64,000 nt of DNA from Chitinophaga pinensis (GTDB lineage Bacteria; Bacteroidota; Bacteroidia; UKL13-3): assembly GCA_945898275.1 (NCBI GenBank), contig CAMDHZ010000004.1:1-64000 (forward strand). The letters are read 5' to 3'. This document shows, piece by piece, positions 380-59,190 of this stretch. Below the pieces are notes generated by a model that was not told where the DNA came from, did not search any database, and saw nothing but the letters and a program-made list of their open reading frames with translations. The position numbers and the translations under genes are program-made. Position 1 is the stretch's first letter; each line of letters opens with the position of its first letter.

Positions 380-394
380 TTGGTTCAAACCGAA
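380..394 (+). repeat. Iterated motif TTGGTTCAAACCGAA, intergenic copy
   Basis: Exact 15-mer copy of the window-wide motif, and one of only two exact core copies outside a gene. It lies 168 bp upstream of the first lipoprotein gene and 256 bp left of the IS element. Confidence 0.85.
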
Positions 395-436
395 GCTATA
401 AATTTTACAAGGAAATTAAATATTAGCTATGTATAA

Positions 437-493
437 ATCTGTGCTATCTGTAAGCCACCTTTTCTCTCACAGATGCCACAGATTTTCACAGAT
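437..493. repeat. CACAGAT short repeat cluster
   Basis: CACAGAT occurs at 468-474, 477-483 and 487-493 with 2-3 bp gaps; its complement ATCTGTG is at 437-443, so the cluster could fold into a hairpin. No gene overlaps it. The function is unknown; it may be a remnant of a larger dispersed repeat. Confidence 0.5.
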
Positions 494-568
494 TTTAAAT
501 ATACTTACAAAGGTCGCGTAAGCCAAGGCAACTTTCCTTCAAACTAATTCCTGCGCTAACTGCAAGGT

Positions 569-587
569 TCGACCCCTTCGGGGTCGA
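569..587. repeat. Hairpin with 8-bp stem and TTC loop
   Basis: TCGACCCC (569-576) pairs perfectly with GGGGTCGA (580-587) around a TTC loop. A weaker relative, AATCC-CTTCA-GGATT, follows at 621-635. No T-run follows either stem, so they are not good intrinsic terminators; they look like dispersed palindromic repeats. Confidence 0.5.
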
Positions 588-649
588 CCACTTTTAGACA
601 TCCCTTTTTTATTCATATTTAATCCCTTCAGGATTGGTTTTGCTGCCAG

Positions 650-676
650 TGTTAGCGCCTGAAATATGTTGACCGT
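650..676 (+). repeat. IS left inverted repeat
   Basis: Starts TGTTAGCGCCTG and continues through a conserved GTTGACCG core; it matches the complement of 2073-2099 at 21 of 27 positions. The last eight-base block (GTTGACCG) is identical at both ends. The boundary is set by the TGT/ACA termini and the CAG flanks. Confidence 0.8.
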
Positions 677-704
677 TTTATGCCGAAAAAACAAAGTTTA
701 AACA

Positions 705-1118: not shown

Positions 1119-1180
1119 GATTTAGTCTAAACCAGTTTTATCAATCAATAGGATTAAGTAAACAATCTCTACACCAATAT

Positions 1181-3466: not shown

Positions 3467-5089
3467 ATGTCAAATAAATTCAATAAGTGGCAGCCATTTA
3501 TATATGCCTTGGTTTTGTCAATCGGATTAGCCATGGGTATTTTTCTGCGACCTGCTGGCTCGGTTCAAACCTTTATAGGAAAAAGCGACAAGTTTAGCGA
3601 ATTGCTCTCCATCATAGACCAATCTTATGTTGATACCATTGACAAGGATGTTTTAGAGGAAGAAACGCTTAATGAAATGCTTCATACGCTCGACCCACAT
3701 TCTGTTTATATCCCTGCCTCCGAATTGAAAGTAGCCAATGAGCAATTGGAAGGAAATTTTGAAGGAATTGGCGTTGAGTTCAATATCATTGACGATACCA
3801 TAATGGTTGTTTCTGCACTTAATGGCGGGCCTGCGCAAGAATTGGGCATTTTACCAGGAGATAGAATTGTTAAGGTAGACAGCATTAGGGTGGCAGGAAA
3901 CGGGATAACCTCCGAAAAGGTCTTTAAACTATTAAGAGGCAAGGGTGGCTCAAAAGTTAAGGTGCAGATTTATAGACCAGGTGAAAAGCAGTTAATTCCC
4001 TTTACCATCACAAGAGGTACCATTCCAATTTATAGTGTAGATGCCTGGCGCATGTTAGACAAAGAAACTGGGTATATTAAGGTTAGTAGGTTTGCAGAGA
4101 ATACCCATGATGAATTTATGACAGCTTTCAATGAACTTAAAGCACAGAACCTTCAAAACTTGGTATTAGATTTAAGAGGAAACCCGGGCGGATATTTAAA
4201 AACCGCTATTGATTTAGCAGATGAATTTTTGGAAGATTCCAAGTTAATTGTTTACACACAAGGTAGGGCTAAGCCTAGAACCGAATATAGTGCAGAACGA
4301 AAAGGGGTATTTGAAAAAGGTAAATTGGTTGTGCTCATAGACGAAGGCTCAGCCTCTGCTAGCGAAATTGTGAGTGGTGCCATACAAGATTGGGACAGAG
4401 GAATGGTTATTGGAAGAAGAAGTTTTGGCAAAGGTTTGGTTCAAGAACCTTACGAATTAAGTGATGGTTCGGCATTAAGATTAACCGTTTCAAGATACTA
4501 CACCCCAAGCGGAAGATGCATACAAAAGGATTATTCAGACAAAGACAAATATGATCATGATTTGTATGAGCGCTATGCCAATGGCGAATTAGAGCGTGAA
4601 GGCGCACAAACCATTTTTGATTCTACACCTTACTTCACCAAAAGGTTGAATAGACCCGTTTATGGGGGTGGTGGAATTTATCCAGATAAGTTTGTTGCCA
4701 TTGATACGAGTTACAATTCGAAGTTTTTGATGAACGTAATTTCTAAAGGCTTAATTGGCAAATTTTCTTACGAATACTTGGATGCCAATAGAAAAGCAAT
4801 AACAGCCATAAAAGACCTAACAAGTTATGTAAATGGCTATCAAATTTCTCAAAATGTGTATGAGGATTTTATTGCTTTTGTAATAAAGAACGAAGTGCAA
4901 AGTCCAACCAAAGAAGAAAAGAAGCGTTCTGAGAAGTTTATCAAATTGCAGTTAAAAGCTTTGGTGGCAAGGCAAATTTGGCGCGACCAAGGCTTTTTTG
5001 CTGTGGTTCAAACCGAAGATAAAGCCATAGCTGCAGCGCTAAATGCGATTATGCAAAATCAAGCTTTGCTAACAGGTTCTTCCAATTGA
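3467..5089 (+). CDS. S41 family C-terminal processing peptidase with PDZ domain
   Basis: This is a membrane-anchored serine protease of the CtpA/Prc type, acting in the periplasm on protein C-termini. One N-terminal membrane helix (about residues 10-27) is followed by a PDZ domain (about 85-175, EGIGVEFNI to KVQIYRPGE) and the S41 core. The catalytic Ser lies in GSASASEIVSG (about residue 297) and the Lys in RRSFGKGLVQ (about residue 322). The C-terminal 150 residues are a family extension. Two exact copies of the iterated motif fall in this gene (3562-3571 and 5005-5014), both reading as Val-Gln-Thr. The 3' end overlaps the convergent trmB by 31 bp. Confidence 0.93.
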   Translation: MSNKFNKWQPFIYALVLSIGLAMGIFLRPAGSVQTFIGKSDKFSELLSIIDQSYVDTIDKDVLEEETLNEMLHTLDPHSVYIPASELKVANEQLEGNFEGIGVEFNIIDDTIMVVSALNGGPAQELGILPGDRIVKVDSIRVAGNGITSEKVFKLLRGKGGSKVKVQIYRPGEKQLIPFTITRGTIPIYSVDAWRMLDKETGYIKVSRFAENTHDEFMTAFNELKAQNLQNLVLDLRGNPGGYLKTAIDLADEFLEDSKLIVYTQGRAKPRTEYSAERKGVFEKGKLVVLIDEGSASASEIVSGAIQDWDRGMVIGRRSFGKGLVQEPYELSDGSALRLTVSRYYTPSGRCIQKDYSDKDKYDHDLYERYANGELEREGAQTIFDSTPYFTKRLNRPVYGGGGIYPDKFVAIDTSYNSKFLMNVISKGLIGKFSYEYLDANRKAITAIKDLTSYVNGYQISQNVYEDFIAFVIKNEVQSPTKEEKKRSEKFIKLQLKALVARQIWRDQGFFAVVQTEDKAIAAALNAIMQNQALLTGSSN

Positions 5090-5736
5090 GCAGGAAGCTT
5101 AAAGGATAGGTATTTTATTTTTCTTCCTTTCGCGCTAAACAAATTTTCATAGTGCGTGCGAATGTTTTTTACATAGCTATCTACTGTTTCAGAGTTGTGC
5201 ACATCTCTATCTAGTTGTATCGGTTTGATCCTAAGCTGCTCGAACAATTCGCAGGTGAAGTCAAAAAGGCCATCATCATCGGTTTTGAAGTGTAAAACGC
5301 CATCGTCATGGATTACCTCTTTGTATAATTTTAAAAAGCGTTGATGGGTAAGACGATGTTTATCGTGGCGGTCTTTAGGAAAGGGATCGGGAAAGGTAAT
5401 CCAGATTTCACTTACCTCGCCTTTTTCAAAATGTTCGGCAAGTTTTTCAATCACCATTCTAATAAAAGCCACATTATTCCTATTGGCTTCAATGGCTTTT
5501 TTTGCGCCCACCCACATGCGATTGCTTTTAAGGTCGATGCCAATAAAGTTTTTTTCTGGGAATGCCTCAGAAAGCGCAACGGTGTATTCTCCTTTTCCAC
5601 AACCTAATTCTAATACAATTGGATGGTTGTTTTTAAAATAATCTGAATGCCATTTTCCTTTTAAATACCTTGGAAAGTCAAAGCAATTCTCGAACGAACT
5701 AAACTCGGCAAATCTTCTTAATTTGTCTTTACCCAT
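5059..5736 (-). CDS. trmB: tRNA (guanine-N7-)-methyltransferase
   Basis: TrmB makes m7G46 in the variable loop of tRNAs using S-adenosylmethionine. The SAM-binding motif I is LELGCGKGEYTVAL (about residues 42-55) and the family signature FPDPFPKDRHDKHRL follows at about 115-129. Length (225 residues) is typical. It is convergent with and overlaps the S41 protease gene by 31 bp, and lies 9 bp downstream of the antiporter gene's region on the same strand, so it is likely the last gene of a Usp-antiporter-trmB transcript. Confidence 0.94.
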   Translation of the reverse strand: MGKDKLRRFAEFSSFENCFDFPRYLKGKWHSDYFKNNHPIVLELGCGKGEYTVALSEAFPEKNFIGIDLKSNRMWVGAKKAIEANRNNVAFIRMVIEKLAEHFEKGEVSEIWITFPDPFPKDRHDKHRLTHQRFLKLYKEVIHDDGVLHFKTDDDGLFDFTCELFEQLRIKPIQLDRDVHNSETVDSYVKNIRTHYENLFSAKGRKIKYLSFKLPAQLEEPVSKA

Positions 5737-7946: not shown

Positions 7947-9995
7947 ATGGACAAAGCAATCTTACTGGAAGCCTATGCCCACATGTGTTCGGTGCGTGCA
8001 ATGGCAGAAATATACGATGCCAATAGGCCAATTGCCAAATATGTACACTCTACCAGTCGCGGCCACGAAGCCATCCAACTAGCTGTGGGTATGCAACTTA
8101 CAGGTGATGATTATGCCGCTCCTTATTACCGTGATGAGAGCATGTTATTAGGCATGGGAATGAGCCCCTATGAATTAATGTTGCAATTATTAGGCAAAGC
8201 AGAAGACCCATTTTCCGGGGGTAGAACTTATTATGGTCACCCTAACCTTAAGCGAGCAGGCTTTGTAAAAATGCTACATTCGAGCTCTGCAACAGGCATG
8301 CAAGCCATTCCAGCCACAGGTATGGCACATGGTATTGCTTATTTAGAAAGTCAGGGCTTACTCGATGCTGAGGAAAACCCAATTGTACTTTGCAGCCTTG
8401 GCGATGGTTCAGTTACAGAAGGCGAAGTTGCTGAAGCCTTTCAAATGGCTGTTTTGAAAAAATTACCCATATTTTACCTGATTCAAGACAATGATTGGGG
8501 CATCAGTGCCAGTGGAGCAGAAATGCGTGCCATGGATGCTTATGAATATGCTGCAGGTTTCAAAGGCTTGCAAAGATTAAGAGTGGATGGCAGTGATTTC
8601 TTAAAATCTTGGAATGCTGTTTTACAGTGTATTGATTATGTTAGAGAACACCGAGCACCGATTTTGTTGCACGCCAAAGTTCCTTTATTGGGCCATCATA
8701 CCAGCGGGGTAAGAAAAGAATGGTACCGCACAGAGGATGACATGTCTAAGCATTTAAAGGACGACCCAACCCCAAAGTTGAGACAGCATTTGCTAGAAAT
8801 TGGTATTCCAGAAACTGAACTTAGAGAAATTGAAGAAATACAGGCAGACAAAGTAGCACAACAGTTTAAACAGGCTGTAAATGCTGCCGACCCAGAGCCA
8901 AGCACTGCGCTCGATCATATTTATACACCAAGTGGTGCCACAGAAGAAGTGGGAATTAGAAAGCCAGAAGGCAAAGAACCTGTGGTTATGGTAGATGCTG
9001 CGTTGCATGCGGTGGATGAGTTAATGGCCAAGCATCCAGAATGTTTGTTTTACGGACAAGACGTGGGTGCCAGACTAGGAGGTGTGTTTAGAGAAGCAGC
9101 TACATTGGCTCAAAAATACGGAGATAATAGGGTGTTTAATACCCCCATTCAAGAAGCCTATATCATTGGTTCAACCACAGGCATGAGTGCAGTTGGTGCA
9201 AAGCCAATCGTAGAAATTCAGTTTGCAGATTATATATGGACAGGCATGAACCAATTGGTATGCGAGATTACAAAATCTAATTACCTCACCATGGGAAAAT
9301 ATCCAGTGAGTGCCGTAATTAGGATTCCTATTGGTGCCTATGGTGGTGGTGGTCCTTACCACAGCGGCAGCATAGAATCTACTTTGCTTACACTCAAAGG
9401 AATTAAAATTGCCTATCCAAGTAATGCTGCAGATATGAAAGGCTTAATGAAAGCGGCATATTATGATGGCAATCCTTGCATCATGCTTGAACACAAAGGC
9501 CTTTACTGGAGCAAGAATCCTGGGACAGAATTAGCCAGGTGTGTTGAGCCAGATGAGGAGTATATTCTTCCTTTTGGTAAAGCCAATAAGGTTTTGCAAG
9601 CAAGTGAAGAAGCCATAGATAACGGAGAAAGTTGTGTGGTGGTAACCTACGGAATGGGTGTATATTGGGCTTTGGCCGCAGCCAAGCAGCATGTAGGCAA
9701 AGTTGAAGTCTTAGACTTAAGAAGCTTGCAGCCCCTCGATGAAGAAACCATCATGGCCTCAGTTAAAACCCATGGCAAATGCTTGGTATTAACGGAAGAG
9801 CCTTTGTTAAATTCATTTGCAGAAAGTTTGGCAGCAAGGATAATGCAACAGTGTTTTACCTCATTAGATGCGCCCGTAGCAACTTTAGGCGCTAAGAACG
9901 TACCAGCCATTCCACTAAACATGGGATTAGAAGCAGAGATATTGCCAAATGCAGAGAAAGTTGCTGTGGTGTTGGGGAGTTTGTTGAGTAATTAA
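7947..9995 (+). CDS. 2-oxoacid dehydrogenase E1, fused alpha and beta subunits
   Basis: This thiamine-diphosphate enzyme carries out the decarboxylating first step of a pyruvate or branched-chain 2-oxoacid dehydrogenase complex. The alpha part (residues 1 to about 330) holds the TPP motif from GDG at 152-154 to Asn182 (GDGSVTEGE … QDNDWGIS). The beta part (about 345-682) has FYGQDVGARLGGVF, the QEAYIIGSTTGMSAVGAKP block and the transketolase C domain at the end. Single-chain alpha-beta fusions of 660-690 residues are common in this phylum. E2 and E3 genes are not in the window, so the substrate is uncertain. Confidence 0.92.
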   Translation: MDKAILLEAYAHMCSVRAMAEIYDANRPIAKYVHSTSRGHEAIQLAVGMQLTGDDYAAPYYRDESMLLGMGMSPYELMLQLLGKAEDPFSGGRTYYGHPNLKRAGFVKMLHSSSATGMQAIPATGMAHGIAYLESQGLLDAEENPIVLCSLGDGSVTEGEVAEAFQMAVLKKLPIFYLIQDNDWGISASGAEMRAMDAYEYAAGFKGLQRLRVDGSDFLKSWNAVLQCIDYVREHRAPILLHAKVPLLGHHTSGVRKEWYRTEDDMSKHLKDDPTPKLRQHLLEIGIPETELREIEEIQADKVAQQFKQAVNAADPEPSTALDHIYTPSGATEEVGIRKPEGKEPVVMVDAALHAVDELMAKHPECLFYGQDVGARLGGVFREAATLAQKYGDNRVFNTPIQEAYIIGSTTGMSAVGAKPIVEIQFADYIWTGMNQLVCEITKSNYLTMGKYPVSAVIRIPIGAYGGGGPYHSGSIESTLLTLKGIKIAYPSNAADMKGLMKAAYYDGNPCIMLEHKGLYWSKNPGTELARCVEPDEEYILPFGKANKVLQASEEAIDNGESCVVVTYGMGVYWALAAAKQHVGKVEVLDLRSLQPLDEETIMASVKTHGKCLVLTEEPLLNSFAESLAARIMQQCFTSLDAPVATLGAKNVPAIPLNMGLEAEILPNAEKVAVVLGSLLSN

Positions 9996-10735: not shown

Positions 10736-10852
10736 TTTGAAAGATTATTGTATTGCAACAACTGTTATTTAGTTAGTTTTCGGGTTGAACCAATTAGCGC
10801 TAATGCAACCCAATATACAGCAGCGTTGACTTCATGAAAAAGCCAGTTATCC

Positions 10853-12007
10853 ATGAAAAAACTAATCCTATTTTTTGCGTTCTTTCCTTTGATATCTCAA
10901 GCCCAGTTTGTAAGTAGCTTTTTTCAATTGTATGGAGATCCAATGCATTCATTTTACCTCGATACTTCCTTGTATCAATCTGGTTTGGGTCAAGCCAAAG
11001 ATTATACAGTAGACGTGGATGGAAACCTAAATTTATTTATTGATCATACTTGGCAAACAGAAGGCAACAGATTCGTAAAAAAAGGCAGTACCTATCCTAA
11101 TGCTACCTCCTATAATTACTATGAAGCCAAATACAGTTTTAAAGAAGATAGGCCTTTTCAAACCGAATATTTTAGACGACTAAAAGACCAAACTTTGCTT
11201 GAACCAACTGGAATAGACTCGATGGCTTTTGAGGATAATCGAATTAAAAATATCCATAGGTTAACAGGTAACCAAAACGCAGGCACTATAACTGAATATT
11301 TTTATGATTCTATCAATGGGGTAAAGGGCAATACGGTTAAATTAATTCCTCCATCAACTGAATATACTGGAATATATAATGTGCGTGAGTTTCATCAACC
11401 CCAACTGCCTAAAATTATAGATGGTTATTCAGAATCTGCTACAGAAAGAAAATTGTTTAGCATTTCTCATTATTACTTTGATTCCTTAAACAGGGTAAGC
11501 TCGGCAATAGATTCTAGCTTGCAATTTGGAGTCAATATGATATTTAGAGGCACCAGAAGAATAGTGTACATAGGAAACACAATGTTGGTAGATTCCATCA
11601 TTCAAGAAAGTCAATATTTTAAATACTATTATGTTTCTATAATAAGTTATGATACCCATCAAAAGATAGCTCAAATTAATCGTTATGGGCAAGAAACCAA
11701 TAGGCCATACCGACTATTGCAGCGCATAGAGTTTGGGACACCTCCTTCAGGCTTATGGGATCAACCCAATACAAAATTAGCAGTTGCCCTTTTTCCCAAT
11801 CCTGCTTTTGATAGGTTAAACTTTAAATCAGAAAAGCCAATTGAGGCAGTTGAAATTTATGACCTTACAGGAGCATTGGTTTTCAAACAGGAGGCTTTCA
11901 AGCTTGAATCAATTTCAATTAAAGAACTAGCGGCAGGCACATACCTTGTAAAGCTAATGAACCAACAAGGTTCGGTTTACCAAAGGTTGATAAAAAGCCA
12001 GAACTAG
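10853..12007 (+). CDS. Secreted protein with type IX secretion (Por) sorting domain
   Basis: The product (384 residues) has a signal peptide (KKLILFFAFFPLISQA, cleavage near AQF) and a C-terminal type A sorting domain of about 70 residues, from LFPNPAFDRLNFKSEKPI through IYDLTGALVF to LAAGTYLVKLMN. Such tails direct proteins through the type IX system to the cell surface. The middle (about 25-310) is rich in Tyr, Asn and Ser with no domain I recognise; it may be a YD-like repeat fold. The spacer before it contains a perfect 12-bp palindrome ATTAGCGCTAAT at 10793-10804 and a one-base-centre copy of the iterated motif (10783-10791). Confidence 0.85.
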   Translation: MKKLILFFAFFPLISQAQFVSSFFQLYGDPMHSFYLDTSLYQSGLGQAKDYTVDVDGNLNLFIDHTWQTEGNRFVKKGSTYPNATSYNYYEAKYSFKEDRPFQTEYFRRLKDQTLLEPTGIDSMAFEDNRIKNIHRLTGNQNAGTITEYFYDSINGVKGNTVKLIPPSTEYTGIYNVREFHQPQLPKIIDGYSESATERKLFSISHYYFDSLNRVSSAIDSSLQFGVNMIFRGTRRIVYIGNTMLVDSIIQESQYFKYYYVSIISYDTHQKIAQINRYGQETNRPYRLLQRIEFGTPPSGLWDQPNTKLAVALFPNPAFDRLNFKSEKPIEAVEIYDLTGALVFKQEAFKLESISIKELAAGTYLVKLMNQQGSVYQRLIKSQN

Positions 12008-12079: not shown

Positions 12080-14320
12080 ATGAGTCAGATGCAACCCGTA
12101 GGAAATCTTGCCACTTTAGAACAAGCCACCCAATTAGGATTACGCCCCGAAGAATTTGATAAAATCAAAGAAATCTTAGGTCGCACCCCAACTTTCACAG
12201 AAATGAGTGTTTACTCAGTAATGTGGAGTGAGCATTGTTCTTACAAAAACTCAATCGTTTGGCTCAAAACGCTACCTAAAGAAGGCGAAAAAATGCTGGC
12301 CAAGGCCGGTGAAGAAAATGCCGGCCTCATTGATATTGGCGATGGATTAGCCTGCTGCTTTAAGATTGAAAGTCATAACCACCCAAGTGCCATTGAGCCT
12401 TACCAAGGCGCAGCAACTGGTGTGGGCGGCATTAACCGCGATATCTTCTCTATGGGTGCACGTCCTATTGCTCAAATGAATTCATTGCGTTTTGGTAATA
12501 TAGAAAACGAGCGTACCAAATGGTTGGTAAAAGGAGTGGTAAAAGGCATTGGAAATTATGGCAATGCCTTTGGTATTCCAACTGTTGGCGGCGAAGTGTA
12601 TTTTGATGATTGTTACCAAATTAATCCTCTGGTAAATGCCATGAGCGTGGGCATTGCCAAAGTGGGTAAAACCGTTTCGGCCATTGCAGAAGGCGTTGGA
12701 AATCCAGTATATATTTATGGTTCTGCTACCGGTAAAGATGGAATTCACGGTGCTGCCTTTGCCTCAAAAGACATTACAGAAGATTCGGCCAAAGACCTTC
12801 CTTCGGTTCAAGTAGGTGATCCTTTCTGGGAGAAACTTATCTTAGAAGCTACCATGGAATTGCTTGAAACCACCGATGCGGTGGTAGGGATGCAAGACAT
12901 GGGTGCGGCAGGTATCACTTGCTCCACCAGCGAAATGAGTGCAAAAAGTGGCACTGGAATGAAAGTGTGGTTAGACAAAGTTCCTATGCGCCAAGCGGGT
13001 ATGAAAGATTGGGAAGTATTGCTTTCTGAAAGTCAGGAACGCATGCTAGTTGTGGTGCACAAAGGCAAAGAAGCAGAGGTCGAAAAAATATTTAAGAAGT
13101 GGGATTTAACCTACGCGGTAATTGGCGAGGTAACCGATACTGGTCGCGTACAATATTTCATGGACGGAGAGTTGCGAGCTGATATTCCGGGAGAAAGCTT
13201 GGTATTAGGCGGCGGTGCTCCGGTTTATCATAGAGAATACAAAGAGCCGCGCTACTTTGAGGAAATCAAAAAATTTGATTTGAACCAAATTGCTGATATA
13301 AATCTAGAGGCAGCACCAGCCATTGCCAAAGCTTTGGTTGCGCATCCAAACATTGCCAGCAAACGTTGGGTATATAACCAATACGATAGCATGGTGGGAA
13401 CCGTTAATCAAACTACCAATGCACCAAGTGATGCGGCCGTGGTTAAGGTAAAAGGCAGTAACCGCAGCATTGCCATGACAGTAGATTGCAATAGCCGCTT
13501 TGTGTATGCCGATCCATTTAAAGGTGCGATGATTGCGGTATCCGAAGCTGCTAGAAATCTTGTTTGCAGTGGCGCAGAACCAGCCGGTGTTACCAATTGT
13601 TTAAACTTTGGTAATCCCTATAACCCAGAAGTGTATTACCAATTTGTATATGCTATTAAAGGCATGGGCGAGGCGTGCAAGAAATTTGATACACCAGTAA
13701 CTGGTGGAAATGTAAGTTTTTACAACCAAAGTTCAGACGACAATGCGGTGTTTCCAACCCCAACCATTGGCATGGTAGGTTTATTGCCAAAAGGTTCAAA
13801 ACACATGACCTTAAACTTTAAGCAAGCTGGCGATGTGATTGTGATGTTGGGTCAAACCAAAGACGATTTAGGCTGCTCGCATTACTTAGCACATTACCTA
13901 AAGGTTGCACAATCTCCAGCGCCTTGGTTTGATTTAGACCAAGAATACAACATGCAACAAGCGGTGTTAAAATTAATTGGGGGCGGTTTGATCCAAAGTG
14001 CTCATGATGTAAGTGAAGGAGGATTGATGACTTGTTTGTTAGAGTCTGCCTTTGTGGGTAATTTAGGATTTGAGATAAGCCAAACTGCCAATTCACGTTG
14101 CGATGCATTCTTGTTTGGCGAAGCACAAGGTAGGGTAGTAGTTAGTGTAAACCCAGTGCAATTAGCCGACGTAGAAAGCCTATTGCATAGGCTTAACCTA
14201 TCCTATGAAAAATTGGGTACAGTTACTGCAAATGGGATTAATGTAAACGGTGTTGATTTTGGCCAAGTGAGCGAGTATTCAGAAATTTACAATAACTCAT
14301 TAGGGCATAAGTTAGCTTAA
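12080..14320 (+). CDS. purL: Phosphoribosylformylglycinamidine synthase subunit PurL
   Basis: PurL converts FGAR to FGAM in purine synthesis, using ammonia supplied by PurQ. At 746 residues it is the small PurL type, which needs separate PurQ and PurS. Clear landmarks are EHCSYKNS, the ESHNHPSAIEPYQGAATGVGG block near residue 95, VGMQDMGAAGITCS, and the C-terminal ISAHDVSEGGL-type motif (IQSAHDVSEGGL). It is a single gene here, between the T9SS-sorted protein and a toxin-antitoxin-like pair. Codon choice resembles that of other housekeeping genes. Confidence 0.96.
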   Translation: MSQMQPVGNLATLEQATQLGLRPEEFDKIKEILGRTPTFTEMSVYSVMWSEHCSYKNSIVWLKTLPKEGEKMLAKAGEENAGLIDIGDGLACCFKIESHNHPSAIEPYQGAATGVGGINRDIFSMGARPIAQMNSLRFGNIENERTKWLVKGVVKGIGNYGNAFGIPTVGGEVYFDDCYQINPLVNAMSVGIAKVGKTVSAIAEGVGNPVYIYGSATGKDGIHGAAFASKDITEDSAKDLPSVQVGDPFWEKLILEATMELLETTDAVVGMQDMGAAGITCSTSEMSAKSGTGMKVWLDKVPMRQAGMKDWEVLLSESQERMLVVVHKGKEAEVEKIFKKWDLTYAVIGEVTDTGRVQYFMDGELRADIPGESLVLGGGAPVYHREYKEPRYFEEIKKFDLNQIADINLEAAPAIAKALVAHPNIASKRWVYNQYDSMVGTVNQTTNAPSDAAVVKVKGSNRSIAMTVDCNSRFVYADPFKGAMIAVSEAARNLVCSGAEPAGVTNCLNFGNPYNPEVYYQFVYAIKGMGEACKKFDTPVTGGNVSFYNQSSDDNAVFPTPTIGMVGLLPKGSKHMTLNFKQAGDVIVMLGQTKDDLGCSHYLAHYLKVAQSPAPWFDLDQEYNMQQAVLKLIGGGLIQSAHDVSEGGLMTCLLESAFVGNLGFEISQTANSRCDAFLFGEAQGRVVVSVNPVQLADVESLLHRLNLSYEKLGTVTANGINVNGVDFGQVSEYSEIYNNSLGHKLA

Positions 14321-36665: not shown

Positions 36666-36787
36666 AATTAACAAATATAATAAAATACACTTCCTAAATT
36701 TTCTAACTATTTTACAACTTCAAGCATGGATAACTATTTTTTTCGGTCTGAACCAAATTTCCTACAATTGAGGTACAATAATAAAAA

Positions 36788-39178: not shown

Positions 39179-39208
39179 TTGATTTTGATATTATCAATCT
39201 TAAATTTG
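39179..39208 (+). promoter_or_regulatory. Promoter TTG-N19-TAAATTTG before the DUF1801-Tag gene
   Basis: TTG at 39179-39181 and TAAATTTG at 39201-39208 fit the Bacteroidota consensus with a 19-bp gap. The predicted start of transcription, near 39214, supports the ATG at 39227 rather than the in-frame start at 39179. Confidence 0.55.
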
Positions 39209-39226
39209 AAACATTTACCTACATCT

Positions 39227-41189: not shown

Positions 41190-41207
41190 AATTGGTTTGA
41201 ACCAATT
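41190..41207. repeat. Iterated motif with fully symmetrical 8-bp arms, intergenic
   Basis: AATTGGTT-TG-AACCAATT is an inverted repeat with perfect 8-bp arms around a 2-base centre, including the exact core at 41194-41203. It ends at the stop codon of the membrane protein gene and is 68 bp upstream of tdh. It is the second of two exact intergenic copies. Confidence 0.85.
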
Positions 41208-46496: not shown

Positions 46497-48119
46497 TTAT
46501 GGGTTCAAACCTTTAACCATAAAGCCATCTTCCACACGATTGGTTCTCAAAGTTACAGAATCAATCATATAGTATGTAGCTGGGAATTGGTCCCAAATGG
46601 TATTATTTAATGGAGAATACAAGAATTTGAAACCATTAATTTCTCTCGCTTTTAAAGCGTTTTTAGGATAAGGTTTTGGTTTGAACCAAACATAGCTTGG
46701 CGCTGAATTTTTTATAAGGGCATAACTCAAATATAAGCCTAAACCAAGAAGCAATACCCATAAAAAGTTAATTGCAAGTTTCGGTTTGAACCTAATAGGT
46801 GTTACATAAAGAGCAAATGCAAGCATACTTACCATATACGCAAATAAGAATCTTGGGTGTGGACCATTGCTAAAAATGATTAGATAACCTAAAAGTAAAA
46901 ATGCACAAACCCAAATATTTTCCTTTTGCTTGATTAACTTAAATGCTAAGTAGGGTATTGAGATTAAAAATGCTACCAACAATGATTTGTTTAGGATGTC
47001 TAAGTTCCCAAACCAAATAGGAAGCCAGTTACTTAAAGGTAAGGTAGCAGTTACATAAACGTCTTGCCCAGGAACTTTTGCCCAGTTTTTTAAGATTACC
47101 TTATCTAATTCAAAAAAGTATGCAGGCACTTTCCAATCTACAATAAACAAATCAATTTGATTAAATGGATAAAGCAGGTAACCACTTAAAATAATATTAC
47201 CAATAAAGTACGGAACAAAGAAAAGCAACGCAATGCCGCTAATCTTGAGTAAATAAGTATAGTTTTTATTTTTTAGTAATTGAATTAACCACGGCAAAGG
47301 CAACATAAAAAAGGTGAGTGCTGTTGCTTTAACAGTCACCATAAAGCATACTATAATGAAGATGTAAAGTTGTGTCCAGTTTCTTTCTGAAGGTTGAATG
47401 GTGCCAATTAAAAAAAGATCTACTAGTAGGTACAAACTAAGTGTTACGATGTAATCCGAGGTTACTGCGCCTACAAAGGCAGTTTTAAGGGATAGGATAA
47501 TGAATGCAATAAAAACCAATCTAAACCACTGATGTTGCTCATTTCTAGCAGGAGAAATGATGAACCATGAAAGTGTAGCTATAAAAAACAAAGCATTACC
47601 AACATATACAGATGCTGCGGTAAATTGGTTCAAACCGAAAAATGCTTGTAAATTAAACCACCAATTATTATTGGCCAATGGACGGTTAAAATTACCCAGA
47701 CCTTTAATAAGCGGGTAATGTTCTGCCCACAGAATATCTTGTAAATGATAATCGGCAATATCACCAGAACCAGGCCTTAACAGAATAGCAATCCAGCCAA
47801 AGAATGTAGCAGGAATAAGCCATTTGAGGTGAGGTTTAATTTGTTGCCAGCTTTGTTCAAAATATCTTTTAGTATTTTGTCTATCATTTATAGCTTGGAT
47901 AAATAAAGCAAACATCATCACCCAAGAGATGCTTGAAATAAAATGAGTAATACTCAATGCTAAAGCTATCGCAGCCATGCCTAAGATATTGCTTAAGCCA
48001 ACCGGAATATAATCTTCTTCCTGATGAAGATTGAATTGAAGTAGTCTATACCAAATAACAGCTCCAACATAATGTGTTGCGAGCCATCCAAGTAGAAAGA
48101 GAATTGCAACTAAAAGCAT
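46497..48119 (-). CDS. Large multi-pass membrane protein, probable GT-C glycosyltransferase (second)
   Basis: This 540-residue polytopic protein has about 12 membrane segments and an early acidic loop SGDIADYHLQDILWAEHYPL like the one in the 41207 gene product. The family is likely GT-C, but I cannot fix it. It is unusually rich in the iterated motif: exact copies at 46502-46511 (last codons), 46678-46687, 46783-46792 and 47627-47636, the last being part of a full 15-mer. It lies immediately against the GT2 stop codon. Confidence 0.7.
   Translation of the reverse strand: MLLVAILFLLGWLATHYVGAVIWYRLLQFNLHQEEDYIPVGLSNILGMAAIALALSITHFISSISWVMMFALFIQAINDRQNTKRYFEQSWQQIKPHLKWLIPATFFGWIAILLRPGSGDIADYHLQDILWAEHYPLIKGLGNFNRPLANNNWWFNLQAFFGLNQFTAASVYVGNALFFIATLSWFIISPARNEQHQWFRLVFIAFIILSLKTAFVGAVTSDYIVTLSLYLLVDLFLIGTIQPSERNWTQLYIFIIVCFMVTVKATALTFFMLPLPWLIQLLKNKNYTYLLKISGIALLFFVPYFIGNIILSGYLLYPFNQIDLFIVDWKVPAYFFELDKVILKNWAKVPGQDVYVTATLPLSNWLPIWFGNLDILNKSLLVAFLISIPYLAFKLIKQKENIWVCAFLLLGYLIIFSNGPHPRFLFAYMVSMLAFALYVTPIRFKPKLAINFLWVLLLGLGLYLSYALIKNSAPSYVWFKPKPYPKNALKAREINGFKFLYSPLNNTIWDQFPATYYMIDSVTLRTNRVEDGFMVKGLNP
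47625..47639 (+). repeat. Iterated motif TTGGTTCAAACCGAA
   Basis: Exact 15-mer inside the second membrane protein gene (minus strand), read there as Phe-Gly-Leu-Asn-Gln. Confidence 0.85.
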
Positions 48120-49945: not shown

Positions 49946-52411
49946 TCAGGTACTTCTTTTAAGAATATGTTCCTTTATTTTGTCTAAAAGCAATTCTTTA
50001 TTTACAGGTTTAGTCAAATAATCATTCATTCCTACATCAAAGCATTTTTTTCTTTCCTCTGCATCATCGTGGGCTGTAACTGCAACAATTGGAATATTTT
50101 TATCCATTGCAAAGGTATCATCTGTTCTTAAATGGTGGGTTGCCTCAATGCCATCCATTTCTGGCATTCTGATGTCCATTAATACTAAATCAAATGATTT
50201 TTCTTGAATTATATTTAAAGCCTCTAATCCATTTTCTGCAACCTGATAGCTATAACCTGTCTTTTCTAAGATTTTTATGAGTAAATGTTGGTTTAATTTA
50301 TTGTCTTCAACTATAAGAATCAAATATTTACTTGGGTCAAAGTTTAATATGTCGGTGGGATTGACAATTTGGTCAACCGGTTGGTTTTCTCCAATTTCCA
50401 CCTCTAATTCAAAAATAAAGCTGCTTCCTCTTCCTTTTTCACTTATAACTTCCAAATGCCCGTCTAAGTGTTCCACCAATTGTTTAACGTTTCTTAACCC
50501 AATTCCAAAACCAGTTTTATTGCTAACTTCAGGTTGTTTTTTGAAAATATCTTTAATCTCCCTTTCACTTAATCCTGAACCTTCATCAATAATAGAAAAT
50601 TGGAGGGTAACAAATTTCTGTTCTCCCTTTAACCTTGTAGCACTATCTTTTACTTCAATTTTTACAACGCCACTTTCAGTGTGATTTACTGCGTTATTAA
50701 GTAAATTATGAAGGATGTTGTTCAGCTTTTGTTCATCGGTTAAGATTACTTTTGGAACTCCTGGATAAACCATTTGATTGAACAACAAACCTTTTTGACT
50801 GCATTTTGATTGGTAAGTTTTAAATACAGTTTCAAGTGAAGTATGAATATTACATGGAGTAATTGTGGTTACAACTTCTTTTCTTTCTAATTGGAGGTAG
50901 GTTATTAAATTATTAAGAACAAACATTAACTCATCACTAGAAAACTTAATGTGCATTAAATAGTCTTTTAACTCGTTAAATGTTTTACTTTCTATTGCCA
51001 ATTGGCTCATCCCAATTATACCATTCAGGGGTGTTCTAATTTCATGATTAATTTGTTGCAACATGCTGCTTTTAGCTTTGTAACTCATCTCAAACAGCTT
51101 ACTTTTCTTGTTAATAGTAACTGTATAAATTAACAAGCCACTTAGAAGTATCAGAAAAAACAAAACACAAAAGACTGCAATCAAAAGAATATTCCTTTTT
51201 TCAATTCCAAGCGCTTGTTCTCTTAATTTTAGATCCTTAATTTCATTTTCTTTTTGAAGCAGTTTTAATTCAGTTTTTCGTCTTTGATTTTCATGTTCTG
51301 AAATTAATTTTCCTATTTCCTTTTTATCACCTCTGTTATTAAAGTTGGAATCATTTTTTTCTGCTAAGTTTAGATAGTAAGCTTCTTTCTCTTCATCACC
51401 TATAGCTTTATAATACTGTGATGCAATGAGGTAGATTCCTCCAGCTTCTATGCTATTCGGGTTTTTATTTGCTGTTTTTAAACCCAAATCAATATAAAAG
51501 AAGGCTGAATCAAAGTTTTCTAAATTCAAATATGCGGAACCTAAGTTGTCTAACACTAACATTAATTCCTTATTACTACCAGATTTTTGGTCTAATTGAT
51601 ATGATTCAATGAAATAGGGAATTGCTAATTTTGGCTGTTTGGAGACTAAATAAACACTTCCAATATTATTTAAGGCAGTTGATATATCTGTAACATTGCT
51701 TTTAACCCTAAAAACCTCCAAGGCAGATTTATAATAATATAGTGCCTTTAGATATTGCTTTTTAGAATGATAAATATTTGCCAAATTATTTGAGATTTCG
51801 GCAATAATTAACTCACTTGGTCCTCCTTTATACAAATCTAAGGAACGCAAAAGGTAAAGCTCTGCCTTATCTGCTTCATCTAAATCTAAATACAAAGAAC
51901 CAATATTGTTATAAGTTCGCGCAGCTCTTGCGTAATCTTTTAACTGCTCAGAAATCTTTACAGAGCCAAGATAATATCGCATGGCTTTAGTTAAATCTTG
52001 GTTTATAAATGCTAAGTTACCAAGACTATGGTAGGCAAATGAAACTGCATAAGGTTCTTTGCATTTCAGAGCAATTGATAATCCCTTTAAATAATTTGCC
52101 TTGGCATCTTCGAGTTTATTATGATTTTTATCTAAAATACCTAGAACAATGTAGGCATTTGCTTGGCCCTTACAATAATTTAATTGGTTAGAAATGGCAA
52201 GTGCTTGGGCAACATAATTTCTAGCTTTGGTGGTGTCTGTGCTTTTTAAATAGATTGCTAATCCATTTAAAATATCTGCCCTTTGTAAATCATTGGCAAA
52301 GGGCAATAAACTTTCTAAGCTGTCTTTTTCATTTTCGGGCTGAGCCAAACTTGGTTCAAACCGAAATAATACAAGCCAAATAAATAATAATTTAACTAAT
52401 TTCCTCATCAT
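49946..52411 (-). CDS. Hybrid sensor histidine kinase with periplasmic TPR domain
   Basis: An 821-residue sensor. A signal peptide (about 1-23) is followed by seven or more TPR units (about 40-350), a coiled coil (365-400), one membrane helix (about 407-433), HisKA with His456 in QQINHEIRTPLNGIIGMS, HATPase (LHNLLNNAVNH, IIDEGSGLS, TGFGIGLRNV) and a C-terminal receiver with Asp746 in LVLMDIRMPEMDG and acid pair at 702-703. TPR-sensing kinases are typical of Bacteroidota. Its output partner is not nearby. A 15-mer motif copy lies in its signal peptide (52351-52365), read Phe-Glu-Pro. Confidence 0.92.
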   Translation of the reverse strand: MMRKLVKLLFIWLVLFRFEPSLAQPENEKDSLESLLPFANDLQRADILNGLAIYLKSTDTTKARNYVAQALAISNQLNYCKGQANAYIVLGILDKNHNKLEDAKANYLKGLSIALKCKEPYAVSFAYHSLGNLAFINQDLTKAMRYYLGSVKISEQLKDYARAARTYNNIGSLYLDLDEADKAELYLLRSLDLYKGGPSELIIAEISNNLANIYHSKKQYLKALYYYKSALEVFRVKSNVTDISTALNNIGSVYLVSKQPKLAIPYFIESYQLDQKSGSNKELMLVLDNLGSAYLNLENFDSAFFYIDLGLKTANKNPNSIEAGGIYLIASQYYKAIGDEEKEAYYLNLAEKNDSNFNNRGDKKEIGKLISEHENQRRKTELKLLQKENEIKDLKLREQALGIEKRNILLIAVFCVLFFLILLSGLLIYTVTINKKSKLFEMSYKAKSSMLQQINHEIRTPLNGIIGMSQLAIESKTFNELKDYLMHIKFSSDELMFVLNNLITYLQLERKEVVTTITPCNIHTSLETVFKTYQSKCSQKGLLFNQMVYPGVPKVILTDEQKLNNILHNLLNNAVNHTESGVVKIEVKDSATRLKGEQKFVTLQFSIIDEGSGLSEREIKDIFKKQPEVSNKTGFGIGLRNVKQLVEHLDGHLEVISEKGRGSSFIFELEVEIGENQPVDQIVNPTDILNFDPSKYLILIVEDNKLNQHLLIKILEKTGYSYQVAENGLEALNIIQEKSFDLVLMDIRMPEMDGIEATHHLRTDDTFAMDKNIPIVAVTAHDDAEERKKCFDVGMNDYLTKPVNKELLLDKIKEHILKRST
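52351..52365 (+). repeat. Iterated motif TTGGTTCAAACCGAA
   Basis: Exact 15-mer inside the 5' end of the histidine kinase gene (minus strand). Confidence 0.85.
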
Positions 52412-53163: not shown

Positions 53164-56100
53164 TAAAAATCCAAACCTAATGATAAATAATAAATAGGGC
53201 TATCGGCTATTTCAAAATCTTGAATGCCCCATGCAGCATCAAACCTTACAAAATAGCCAAATAGTTTTGAACGTAAGCCTGCGCCTGTGCCGGCAACTAT
53301 TGGGTCCCGCACATTAATCACTTTCGCTTTTACTGGACCTTGCTCATAAATCTTTTGATTAAAGGTATTTTCATCACTATATGGGTTTGAACCTACCCAT
53401 GCTGTGCCAATATCAAAGAAGGGAACAATTTGAAAATTATTTAAGAATTCACTTCGAAGGGGTCGGTTCAACGCATACCTAAATATTGGTATTCTTACTT
53501 CTGCATTTGCCAAAACATAATTATTGCCGTTTCTAATGTTTTGGTCGAACCCGCGCAGGTTGCAAGCCAAAGCTTGAAAAATATAATTTCTATCGTTTGC
53601 AGTTGCAATTTCGTTGTTGAAACTAGGTGAAATCCAATTTTCTACAGCACCTAAATAATAAACTACCCTTCCTGGCCCAAATGAGGTGTTTGCAGAAAGT
53701 CTACCTGCAAATATGATTTGGCGATGTATTTTTTGATAATGCCTAAAGTCTATACCTAATACATTTATCTGCAAATCTGTATTGTTTAGGTTTACAAACT
53801 TTTCATAGAATACTTTAAAACGCGTACCATGCCATAAATTGAGTCCTTTTGGTATGGTGTTGTCAAATACAAATTCTGCTTTTCCACCAGACCAATTGGT
53901 GTATTTATCTGATGAATCCAAAGTGGGAACATCCGTTGACCGTGTAATATCTCTATCCTGACGGTAAAAGGTTTCAATTCTAAAGCTGCTCACCTGATTA
54001 AAAGGAATTCTTACTGAATATCGTAGCTCATGGGAAAGATTTTTAAAACTTCTAACTTCTGGTACGCCTCCACTTCTGCTTTGTCTATAAAAAGTTAGCT
54101 TATGGTCGAGTTTTTTCTTGCGAGTTTCTACACTTGCAAAATAATCAAAGCCACTCAAATCATAGGCTAATCTTAAACCTCCGTTGATTCTATAATCTTC
54201 GAATAAGTCTATCATGCCAAGCTTAAACATGCCATTCAAGCCAGGATTAAACATTTGTCCAGCTGCTGGAGTAATAGGTTGATAGTAGGTGTTGATGATA
54301 CTATTGTCAATAAATTGGGCTAAAATTTTATCGGGGAAAAAGGTTACATCATAAAATCTCGGGGCATTTATTTTCGGAATTTTCTTTGACCCTAATTCTA
54401 ACTCAGATTTTTTAAGGATGGTAAATGCCGGTCGTTTGTAGTTTGGTTCTGTAAATTCGCTTACAAAAAAATACGCATTGGTATCATTGGCTATTTTAAC
54501 ATTCTCTTCAGAATTTTGCTGAGAAGCTCTTAATCTATTCTCCTTAAATACAACCGGTCCTTTAACAAATTGCTCTGTTGCATAACCTGTTTTTAGCCTA
54601 AACATGGTTGGGTAAGTTTCAATTGACTCGGATGATTTAACTACATCCTTTTCTATGCCAGCATAACGAATAGTATATTTTCCTTTGTCTAAAATCAAGT
54701 CAAAAACTTGCTTGGTCTGTATAGAAACATCGTGTGCTAGAATGTTCTTTTTGTAGTTTGTAAGTGGATAGGTATATACGATATCTTTAAAATGAACAAT
54801 TGTATCAATTCTTTCCACGCCTATGTTAAGGTTGATTTGTTTTCCTTCAAACTCAAATTGGCTTCCTTGCCAAGAAGGTTCGTTTTCATAAACTAATGTG
54901 TCGGGCTCTTTTTGAACCGAATCTTTATAAAAAATTTGAAGCTCGGTATAGTCGTAAACTTCTTCAATTCTTGCAGCGTATCTATTATAAATACCATTGT
55001 ATTCTGTTAGATAAGCGAAGTAATCTTTGTTATAATCGATAGGTTGAATTTCATTGATATAAGGTGTTTTAGTTAACCTTTTAAGTTTTCTGTTATTTGT
55101 TTCAAGGTCGTACATGAAAATATCAAAGTTGTTTCCTTCTTCTAGACTATTGCTAATTCCTACTCCTAAGGAATCTCTACTTCTGTTGGAGCTGAATACA
55201 ATTTTTGTAGAGAAATCAACAAACCTTGGATATTGATCATCGTAAAAGTCTGAAGTGATTTGCCTTTCTTTCCTTGTTTGAATATCATAGGTATAAATAT
55301 CACTTTGCCCTTTTCTTATAGCTGCTAAAACCAAGGTTCGGCCATTCTCGCTAAAATCAATTCCTGTAATTTTATCGAACTTTAAAAACTTAATGGTTTC
55401 TTTTTTCTTGTTTACTAAATCTACCAAGCGCATGTAAACCACACCTTTTTTTTCGTACACATAAGCTAATTTATCTCCACCTGCTTGCCATGCAATAAGT
55501 GGAAAGGAATAGTCTACGTTTAGCTGGTAATATTTGATGCCACCTTTAAATATTTTCTTTGTTTTACCTGTTTGCGTATTGAGCAAAAACACTTTGTATT
55601 TACCATTTTTATTAGTGGTATAGGCAAGCATATTTCCTTTTGGACTAACCTTCATTTGCGGTTGAAGGTAAGGAGCAAGTCTTTTTTTAATTTTAAATTC
55701 AGAAGCAGGAAAATCGTTTAATAAATCAGATTCTTTCTTAAATAATTCTTGGTAATGGATTAAATATTCTTCAGTAATCTCTTTGTAGGATTTACTTGTA
55801 ACATATTCAATAGCTGATTCATAGTTTCTAGTTAGCTTGGTTATATAAACAAGGTTGGCTATCGATTCTTTATCATACTTTTCTACCATAAATTTCCAAA
55901 AAGCATGGCCTGCAAATGCTGCATCTTTTTGGTTCAAACGGTTAAATCTTGCCTTTTTACCTTGTTCCAGAATATCTTTCATCCGATTGTTTAAATCAGC
56001 ATCCCATGGCCTAGAAAGGTAAGAGGTTAATCCATGAATATACCACTCAGGTAAATTTAAGAATGCTGCTGTTTGCAGTCTTTCTTGAATATTTCCACCA

Positions 56101-56564: not shown

Positions 56565-56667
56565 GCGCTACCTCAAAAATGCAGTAAAATCACCACTTAT
56601 GGAAATTAAATTTCTAATTATTGCACTTGAATTAATTCTTTTACTTTCGTCCCACAAAAATGACGAT

Positions 56668-57324
56668 ATGTTGCAGGTAAAAAGCTTTGTTTTTAATGAG
56701 TTTCAAGAAAACACATATGTGATTTGGGATCAAACCAAAGCTTGTGCTATCATAGACCCAGGCTGCTATAAATCTCAAGAGCGACTTGAATTGTCTGATT
56801 TTATTGCTAAAAATGAGTTGAAGCCTGAATTGTTGTTAAACACGCATTGCCACATCGACCACGTCTTAGGAAATGACTATGTAATGGCTAAATACAACTT
56901 GCCTTTGCATTTACATAAAGACGAATTAAAAACATATTCAGATACCAAAAAATGGACAGCCATGTTTGGAATTCCACCTCTAGTGTTACCAGAAAATTTA
57001 GTTTTTTTAAATGCTGGGACGGCAATTTCTTTTGGAGAAACAAGCCTCGAGGTATTGTTTACTCCAGGACATTCCATTGCTTCCCTTAGCTTTTTTCATG
57101 CCAGCAGCCTCCAACTTTTTGCAGGAGATGTTTTATTCAAGCAAAGTATAGGCAGAACAGATCTTCCTAGTGGAAATCTTAACACTTTGCTCAATAGCAT
57201 TAAAGAACAATTGCTTGTTTTACCAGATGAAACCATTGTATACGCAGGACACAACGAGCCAACCTCCATTGGAGAAGAAAGAAGAAGTAATCCTTTTTTG
57301 AGAAACCTTCAGGCTAGTCTTTAA
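56668..57324 (+). CDS. Metallo-beta-lactamase fold hydrolase (glyoxalase II-like)
   Basis: The protein of 218 residues begins MLQVKSFVFNEFQENTYVI, the usual start of the phylum's glyoxalase II-like hydrolases, and has the metal site NTHCHIDHVLGN (HxHxDH) plus later His and Asp in TPGHSIASLSFF, FAGDVLF and YAGHNEPTS. Persulfide dioxygenase or thioesterase activity is also possible. I choose the ATG at 56668; a longer frame from 56476 overlaps the divergent large gene and has no family match. A TACTTTCG box at about 56641-56648 may be the promoter -7. Confidence 0.9.
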   Translation: MLQVKSFVFNEFQENTYVIWDQTKACAIIDPGCYKSQERLELSDFIAKNELKPELLLNTHCHIDHVLGNDYVMAKYNLPLHLHKDELKTYSDTKKWTAMFGIPPLVLPENLVFLNAGTAISFGETSLEVLFTPGHSIASLSFFHASSLQLFAGDVLFKQSIGRTDLPSGNLNTLLNSIKEQLLVLPDETIVYAGHNEPTSIGEERRSNPFLRNLQASL

Positions 57325-58339
57325 TAGGGAAAACAAGCTCTGTAAGCCATTTACTATTGTCTTTTTCTAGCATTGGGTCTGTAAAATAAAATTCCATTGG
57401 TGCCCCTGCTGCTTTCAGATTATTCTCGATAAGGTATTTAAAGCCTTCTCCATACAAGGGCCCAATCTTTTCATAAGGGCCATAATATTTGATGACCAAT
57501 TGTTTGCCAGCCTCTATTTTTCCCGCAATAACAGGAGGTGTAACGGTGATTTCACTTTCTACACCTAGGCAAGTTGCCATATCATAAACTTTGCCTTTAG
57601 CTGCATAATTAATGGTAAAAGGTGCACCTGTTTGTTTGGCAGAAAGTTGTTTGATAAGGTCTAATAAAAAGGCATAATTCTCTCCGAGCTTTGGCCCAAT
57701 TTCTTCTTCCTTTAATTGGTTGCGCAAGGCAATATAAAATAGGGGAGAGGTGTTTCTAACTTCTGCCTCAAAGCCGCCAATTTCTAAATCAGTTTTGGAT
57801 TCAGCAATTTCTTTGATGGATTTTAATCCTGCCTCATAATCTGGCCCAAGCATACCATCCATTAAAAGTCCAAAAAGCTTGCTTATCGGTACCCAATAAA
57901 AGGGAAGGTCCTTAGTGTCTGAGTCGAAATTCCAAGTAAGGTGCACTATTCCTTCGGTTTCTTTCATGTTAAAATCAGCACGACTGCCTCCAAAATCATT
58001 TAGCGTTAATTCTATTTCAACCTTTTCATTTGGCACACTTGAGACAATTTTCATTGTACCATTGCCAACATCAGGATGTTTGCTTTTCCAGCTAAATGAA
58101 GCACCATTGCCTTCATAAATATCTGCATATGTATATATAGAATTAGTGTCTTTTTTATGCCATGGGCTCCACTGTTTCCAAGCTTTAAAATTGTTCACTA
58201 AATTATAAATATGCTTAGAATTAGCATTTATGTCAATGCTTCTTTCTACATGAGTTTTAGTTGGTAAAAAGAATGAAACAATAAGCAGCAATCCAATCAA
58301 ACCTAGGATTGAAAATGCAATGTATTTTAGAATTTTCAT
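57314..58339 (-). CDS. SRPBCC domain protein with GyrI-like effector-binding domain
   Basis: The 341-residue protein has one N-terminal membrane helix (about 7-25), an SRPBCC polyketide-cyclase-type domain (about 30-170, ERSIDINANSKHIYNLVNNF) and a GyrI-like ligand-binding domain (about 200-341, ending in LTELVFPIK). The pair is common as a membrane-anchored stress or small-molecule-binding protein in Bacteroidota. Its substrate is unknown. It overlaps the convergent hydrolase gene by 11 bp and lies 23 bp from prmA on the same strand. Confidence 0.82.
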   Translation of the reverse strand: MKILKYIAFSILGLIGLLLIVSFFLPTKTHVERSIDINANSKHIYNLVNNFKAWKQWSPWHKKDTNSIYTYADIYEGNGASFSWKSKHPDVGNGTMKIVSSVPNEKVEIELTLNDFGGSRADFNMKETEGIVHLTWNFDSDTKDLPFYWVPISKLFGLLMDGMLGPDYEAGLKSIKEIAESKTDLEIGGFEAEVRNTSPLFYIALRNQLKEEEIGPKLGENYAFLLDLIKQLSAKQTGAPFTINYAAKGKVYDMATCLGVESEITVTPPVIAGKIEAGKQLVIKYYGPYEKIGPLYGEGFKYLIENNLKAAGAPMEFYFTDPMLEKDNSKWLTELVFPIKD

Positions 58340-58362
58340 GGGTTAAAATTTTGGTAAATATA

Positions 58363-59190
58363 TCAACTAAAAGTTAAAATAGCTGCACACCAATTATTTT
58401 TGGTAAGGTAGGTTTGAACCAACAAACCAGCAGCTAGAATGCTGTCTTTCAGTACTATTAAGTCAGACTCATAGAAGCCGCTAATTATGATTTGTCCGTT
58501 TTTGTTTAACATAGCGGCCATATCAGACATGGAGTCTTGTAAAACATTTCTATTAATGTTTGCTAAAATAATATCAAAATCATTATCAGAAACTTTGCTT
58601 AAATCACCATGAATAAATGTGATATCAGAAACTTGGTTCAAACCAATATTTTCTTGGATGTTTTCTGCAGCCCAATCATCAATATCATTTGCAACCACAG
58701 AGGCTGCACCTAATTTTTTTGCTAAAATCGCTAGAATTCCAGTTCCGCTTCCATAATCAAAAACCTTCTTTTCATTAAAATCTATCGCTAACATTTGTGT
58801 TAAAATACTTGCAGTTGTTTCGTGATGGCCTGTGCCAAAAGAAGTTTTAGGCTGAATAATTAGTTCATGATCAAAATGCAAATCTTGCAAATGAAAAGGA
58901 GCTCTAATGATAAGTTTATCTTCGATAATAACGGGTTCAAAAGAACTTTCCCAAATGGCATTCCAGTTTTGTTGGGCTACTTCTTGTGTTTTATAATCGC
59001 TTGGCGCAAGCTCGTATTTCTCTAGAATTCCTTGGGTTAAAGATTTGTCAAATAAATTAAGTTCGATGCACGCTTCAAAGCCAAATTCTGTTTCTAGAAA
59101 TGAATCGAACTCAATGGCAGCTAGCTCTGCCATTAAGAATTCGGAAGTTTCTGAAGGGCAGGTAACACTTAGAGAAATATATTTTTGCAT
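58363..59190 (-). CDS. prmA: Ribosomal protein L11 methyltransferase
   Basis: PrmA trimethylates ribosomal protein L11. The substrate-binding N-domain (about 1-95) precedes the SAM domain with FGTGHHETTASILTQM, VFDYGSGTGILAILAKKLGA (motif I), ANDIDDWAAENIQENI and ILANINRNVL (motif IV). Length 275 is normal. Two exact motif copies, 58411-58420 (Val-Gln-Thr) and 58635-58644 (Gly-Leu-Asn-Gln), lie 224 bp apart in opposite orientation. Confidence 0.93.
   Translation of the reverse strand: MQKYISLSVTCPSETSEFLMAELAAIEFDSFLETEFGFEACIELNLFDKSLTQGILEKYELAPSDYKTQEVAQQNWNAIWESSFEPVIIEDKLIIRAPFHLQDLHFDHELIIQPKTSFGTGHHETTASILTQMLAIDFNEKKVFDYGSGTGILAILAKKLGAASVVANDIDDWAAENIQENIGLNQVSDITFIHGDLSKVSDNDFDIILANINRNVLQDSMSDMAAMLNKNGQIIISGFYESDLIVLKDSILAAGLLVQTYLTKNNWCAAILTFS

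Follow-up and report, generated by a model that had tools for sequence, protein, structure and literature searches.

The DNA uptake sequences (DUS) of the Neisseriaceae are words of 10-12 bp that occur in hundreds to thousands of copies, on both strands and in genic as well as intergenic DNA, and their dialects have a short core in common and track the tree (PMC3630211). The uptake signal sequences (USS) of Haemophilus and other Pasteurellaceae combine a strict core with tolerant positions, and in H. influenzae as in Neisseria near-miss copies are over-represented in graded fashion (PMC1939737). The cyanobacterial word HIP1 is likewise highly iterated, and some lineages carry other words in its place (PMC4390886). 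Here we describe the iterated word GGTTCAAACC and its wider family TNGGNTCRNNCC, identified in a stretch of 64,000 nucleotides (hereafter the window; positions 1 to 64,000 of contig CAMDHZ010000004.1, assembly GCA_945898275.1, Chitinophaga pinensis, Bacteroidota). A first-pass annotation of the window had likened the word to HIP1 or to uptake sequences, and this comparison was supported genome-wide. The motif is enriched and directional, it is constrained as DNA, it turns over in position while its density is kept, and it is restricted to one clade whose lineages use different dialects. An uptake (self-recognition) sequence comparable to DUS and USS is our leading explanation, held at about even odds.

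Enrichment and form of the word

All 20 exact copies of GGTTCAAACC reported in the window by the first-pass annotation were recovered, and the claim that they far exceed chance was borne out by 100 dinucleotide shuffles (mean 0.15, maximum 1) and by an order-3 Markov model (0.26 expected). Six of the copies share the 15-mer TTGGTTCAAACCGAA, as had been described, while the ten one-mismatch copies already listed proved real and belong to a total of 25 positions in the window that lie one base off GGTTCAAACC. The genome as a whole (3.52 Mb in 106 contigs) contains 394 + 391 = 785 copies, compared to 9 + 20 = 29 for the same word written backwards, and the family word TNGGNTCRNNCC reached 1533 sites against 90 for its control. 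When synonymous codons were shuffled in 460 sampled genes with protein and codon usage kept, a mean of 8.0 copies (maximum 11 in 20 runs) was obtained, whereas the real genes contain 112. Both the genome-wide expectation and the codon-preserving null are therefore far exceeded, and neither a chance-level count nor codon bias, the two outcomes by which the annotation had proposed to discard the motif, was observed. The full-sequence reading covered 16% of this genome, the assemblies are metagenome-assembled genomes (MAGs), and genes are plain longest-open-reading-frame (ORF) calls.

The consensus of 113 copies in 464 kb was tTwGGTTCAAACCgAAa, with a T at position -2 in 96% of them; one motif-fitting program gave loose fits, and its output serves for consensus shapes alone. 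Among one-base variants, strong enrichment was confined to two core positions, 3 (A 37-fold, G 41-fold) and 8 (C 30-fold, G 14-fold); variants in the right half were moderately enriched, and those at either left-half G or at the left-half C were not. The left half, T-GG-TC, is thus strict and the right half softer, with an A-tail after it, and the motif has a preferred spacing of 6 bp. Strict core, tolerant positions and a near-miss gradient are all shared with the Pasteurellaceae USS (PMC1939737). The layout also resembles that of Haemophilus USS with its flanking A/T tracts, as A-richness was found at +10..13 in all three dialects described below (z 15, 7 and 7.5) and again at +18..23 in dialect A (z 7.9). 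Unlike in USS, the core is a different one, the second A-tract is clear in dialect A only, and a type IV pilus motor is missing here. Sequence conservation around the motif is limited to approximately 16-27 bp.

The annotation had described the word as an inverted repeat. This was not upheld as its key feature, because the two halves differ in strictness, GGTTNNAACC is found in the window with no centre other than CA/TG, and the dialect form GGTTCAGGCC lacks matching arms; the recognised unit is a directional TNGGNTCR followed by a softer CC and an A-tail. In a secondary variant, TNGG-N5-CCNA, the spacer is shortened to 5 bp (304 copies in 564 kb of this genome, against an expected 222; for example TTGGTTCAACC and GGTTGAACCA, the latter with 32 copies vs 1.9 expected in 464 kb), which suggests that a reader tolerates one missing base. 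In addition, the downstream extension AACCGAAACC was present 17 times vs 1 expected in 464 kb, so that some copies of the motif run on into GAAACC, an extra ACC half-site.

Within 564 kb, 112 of 140 copies (80%) were located inside genes, 65 in sense and 47 in antisense orientation, and 28 were intergenic. Since only 7% of this sequence is non-coding, the intergenic density is roughly three times the expectation, which fits relief from protein constraint. Spacing between copies was near random (coefficient of variation (CV) 1.16). In the window, too, most copies are spread out, as noted in the first pass, and lie within genes. No strand polarity was seen within stretches of 160-240 kb of three contigs (29/27, 17/20 and 27/20), and density was alike in these contigs and genome-wide. 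An RNA-level role, which had been offered as one possibility, was not supported by the mix of sense and antisense copies, stop codons barring one antisense frame. A resemblance to the tRNA T-arm was likewise dropped, as the window holds no tRNA or Rfam match. Repetitive extragenic palindromes (REP), bacterial interspersed mosaic elements (BIME) and other extragenic repeats differ from the present word in that most of its copies are genic and its conserved stretch is short.

Constraint, turnover and dialects

A relative in the same genus, G008, diverges from this genome by 7.0% over 124 kb. At the copies of G008, none of 330 core positions was substituted in our genome (6.5% in the flanks), and in the reverse direction 10 of 390 core positions differed (7.5% in the flanks), a single site accounting for several of the ten. 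Fourfold-degenerate bases within the core were changed at 3 of 51 positions (6%) compared to 22.9% elsewhere for G008 (P = 0.001), and at 4 of 22 compared to 56% for G005 (P = 0.0003), indicating that the DNA word itself is preserved. Aligned family sites were still family sites in 67 of 69 cases in G008, 32 of 43 in G005 and 3 of 18 in G013, and G013 nevertheless has the highest family count of all (2315); over longer times, density is kept and position is not. Where aligned sites differ, they do so by substitution and, with rare exceptions, not by insertion.

Enrichment of GGTTCAAACC extended to each of the 18 other genomes of the genus, which carry between 46 and 1318 copies. Outside the genus, the word stayed at the level of its control, both in 13 further genera of the family (18 genomes) and in 396 genomes sampled across the phylum. 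The family word TNGGNTCRNNCC was enriched in 19 of 19 genomes of the genus, with 353-2315 sites per genome vs 45-177 for the control, and had 27-107 sites in sister genera, like their own controls. Public relatives found via PurL are uncultured Bacteroidota, many with sample names from a pond or lake, and the 13 motif-bearing rows of the PurL tree need a single change (support 93/86; 92% of bootstraps). Judged from this tree, the motif family arose once. In G015, G018 and G017 the family word reached just 4-7 times the control, and G015 and G018 form a separate pair at the midpoint root of the SucD tree; these genomes may therefore show the motif being gained or lost.

The relatives differ in their most over-represented word. 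Dialect A (CAAACC) is used by our genome (785 copies genome-wide), G008 (839), G005 (655) and G013 (1318), dialect B (CGAACC) by G012 (300), G010 (272) and the incomplete G016 (186), and dialect C (CAG[ACG]CC) by G001 (559), G007 (466), G002 (369) and G004 (238). The dialect B form GGTTCGAACC is a perfect palindrome, whereas dialects A and C are not palindromic. In the SucD tree, the B genomes form one clade (100/99), as do five C genomes (100/98) and G000, G008 and G005 (96/97); the dialect trees are single-gene trees, which leave the order of G002, G003, G009 and G013 unsettled. The dialects follow lineages, and in having dialects with a shared core that track the tree the motif resembles the Neisseriaceae DUS, as it does in copy number, length and distribution (PMC3630211). 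The counts (1533 in 3.5 Mb, and up to 2315 in G013) are within the known range of uptake sequences. It is unlike DUS in phylum and sequence, in the lack of a type IV pilus motor, and in that an uptake role here is a reading from analysis.

Copies in the window and other repeats

Genic copies in the window occupy all five stop-free reading phases. The frame VQT is used at 3562..3571 and 5005..5014 (both +, gene 3467-5089, an S41 peptidase; the second is the sole copy without T at -2), 36931..36940 (+, gene 36788-38221), 39268..39277 (+, gene 39179-40183), 43235..43244 (+, gene 42948-44021) and 58411..58420 (-, gene 58363-59190). GLN is encoded at 17525..17534 (-, gene 16685-17578), 34447..34456 (-, gene 32764-34884, feoB), 46502..46511 (+, 3' end of gene 46497-48119), 47627..47636 (+, same gene) and 58635..58644 (+, gene 58363-59190), and GSN at 28323..28332 (-, gene 27937-28872) and 53384..53393 (-, gene 53163-56564), the latter copy having a counterpart at the matching position in several other species. 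FKP appears at 26652..26661 (+, gene 26618-27922, as WFKP in the signal peptide region) and at 46678..46687 and 46783..46792 (both -, gene 46497-48119), and FEP at 38644..38653 (+, gene 38205-39131) and 52353..52362 (+, gene 49946-52411). The two intergenic copies are at 382..391 (+, within TTGGTTCAAACCGAA) and at 41194..41203 (-, just past gene 41207-42874).

Further family sites on the plus strand are TTGGGTCAAGCC (10985..10996), TGGGATCAACCC (11756..11767), TTGGGTCAAACC (13847..13858), TTGGTTCAAGCC (17378..17389 and 32282..32293), TCGGTTCAACCC (22726..22737), TTGGATCAACCC (31210..31221), TTGGCTCATCCC (51002..51013) and TGGGATCAAACC (56725..56736); those at 13847, 31210 and 32282 are kept in both G008 and G005. 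On the minus strand they are TAGGATCAAACC (5222..5233), TTGGTTCATGCC (9243..9254), TTGGTTCAACCC (10782..10793 and 38997..39008), TTGGATCAAACC (13985..13996), TTGGGTCAAACC (25707..25718), TTGGTTCATACC (32839..32850), TTGGTTCAGACC (36745..36756), TTGGCTCAGCCC (52337..52348, adjoining the exact copy at 52353) and TGGGGTCAAACC (60775..60786, a position shared by several species).

Two adjoining ORFs (137 and 266 amino acids) lie at 705-1981, the first of which starts like a helix-turn-helix transposase; they resemble the insertion sequence (IS) of the first-pass annotation, which had been said to lack the motif, and 0 copies were indeed found there. A different word, AGCCTCTG, occurs nine times in the window vs 1.3 expected (2107, 2255, 4351, 30906, 34415, 37030, 41603, 42515 and 58698), a count that applies to the window only. 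Among the relatives, G015 carries tandem arrays of the heptamer AGGTATG (L164, 18961-18996; L166, 2561-2655). In a sister genus, G021 has many copies of ACCACAGGCA and CACCAACCAC in one region (L175, 5344-10840), which together with clusters of ACTGACCACT in L173-L174 represent another kind of repeat. In G035 (sister genus g7) the palindrome TTGTATACAA is present at 7 places in 120 kb (L186-L189; two-strand count 14 vs 1.7 expected).

Candidate roles

Preservation at the DNA level whatever the frame or strand, shifting positions, a single origin and dialects together point to a trans-acting reader whose taste drifts. We tentatively propose, with slightly less than even confidence, that the motif is the first DNA uptake sequence of the Bacteroidota, a dialect-bearing self-tag read by a pilus-independent, perhaps TonB-dependent importer, so that sequence-specific transformation would have re-evolved outside pilus systems. 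The word would be read on double-stranded DNA as a genome-wide tag of self: in the course of natural transformation, a receptor at the cell surface or in the periplasm would bind TWGGNTCR-nnCC-RAAA and favour the import of DNA of the cell's own kind. Sites would be born by point mutation and favoured either because tagged alleles return by uptake and recombination or by weak selection, and a shift in receptor preference would then let a lineage drift into a new dialect.

As for the machinery, the DUS and USS systems of Neisseria and Haemophilus rely on type IV pili. The motor ATPase of type IV pili and type II secretion systems (T2SS), PF00437, was absent from our genome and gave at most weak partial matches in the genus, which makes a ComP-like pilin an unlikely reader. 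ComEC was found in 60 of 60 genomes, relatives outside the genus included; with ComEC present and the motor missing, the reader would be non-pilus machinery, possibly like that of Riemerella and including an outer-membrane protein of the TonB-receptor type. Transformation of R. anatipestifer needs ComEC, DprA, ComF, RecA and a helix-hairpin-helix protein, and also an outer-membrane protein with a domain of the TonB-dependent-receptor type and a predicted surface partner (PMC8459023), and its TonB mutants showed reduced transformation, perhaps via iron (PMC8383284). R. columbina prefers its own DNA, uptake being competed by own but not by equal foreign DNA, while a k-mer search in Riemerella and Flavobacterium gave A/T runs only (PMC7965970). 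We found no described equivalent in Bacteroidota, and the first-pass annotation had known of none. DUF4249 lipoproteins were considered as a receptor partner and rejected, since they occur in nearly every relative within and outside the genus. Phages were likewise rejected as carriers of the tag: scans of IMG/VR (virus contigs without host assignment) with two 15-mers returned single, scattered matches with background density around them.

Several observations weigh against an uptake role. ComEC does not discriminate, being universal in the phylum sample, and the pilus motor is missing; the uncultured genus has no known receptor and no transformation on record. Divergence did not depend on the distance to the nearest site, where strong recombination at sites might have lowered it, and inverted site pairs that could act as terminators were not common. 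Finally, 6 of 75 family sites and 1 of 39 exact sites lie in the 9.8% of sequence unaligned to G008, numbers too small to demonstrate a depletion.

The best-surviving alternative is that a chromosome-organising or nucleoid protein specific to the genus binds the word and requires many such sites per genome, with dialects as changes of its specificity. Constraint independent of frame and strand, density that is kept during turnover and is similar in three contigs and genome-wide, and a partial two-fold symmetry with TTGG/CCAA half-sites at a fixed 6-bp spacer would all suit such a protein. However, a symmetric dimer site would not usually have so strict a core on one side or a CA/TG centre, copies are spaced neither evenly nor by domains, and the known organising sites parS and matS are much rarer; overall, we consider this explanation doubtful. 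Alternatively, as for HIP1 in the Elhai model (PMC4390886), the word may be the target of an orphan DNA methyltransferase, or arise as its by-product, with a methylation-directed bias of repair. Such an effect would account for high copy number in genes, for lineage-specific replacement words and for the palindromic dialect B. HIPs, though, are palindromes with matching methyltransferases, while the main dialect of the present motif reads in one direction and contains no palindromic core of at least 4. Of the methyltransferase families, PF01555 (N6/N4) had no match in the strong carriers G005, G008, G010, G012 and G014, and PF00145 (C5) none in G005, G013, G012, G009 and G010; neither is common to the carriers, PF02086, PF02384 and other families not having been searched. 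The methylation site suggested by the annotation, at least of the usual orphan kind, was thus not supported, and we rate a HIP1-like effect as improbable.

A signal for recombination or segregation, of which Chi and the FtsK-orienting polar sequences (KOPS) are examples, would also be asymmetric, frequent and mostly genic, but the motif is longer than known Chi sites, its consensus is much longer overall, strand polarity is absent in long contigs and divergence near sites is not lowered, which makes this very improbable. An origin in biased codon pairs, peptides or mutation, or in a mobile repeat scattered through the genome, fits the mostly coding location and is refuted as sole cause by the use of five frames, the codon-preserving null, the intergenic excess and change by substitution.

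If the uptake reading is true, the motif is a kind of tag not previously described in Bacteroidota. Only a few bacterial groups are known to carry genome-wide self-tags, and decades passed before the pilus receptors of these were identified. The motif can also be used as a marker that assigns freshwater metagenome fragments to the genus and its lineages. An unrelated, dialect-bearing clade in a phylum with pilus-free transformers would make it directly testable whether receptor bias, selection favouring exchange within species or a chromosome function gives rise to such tags.

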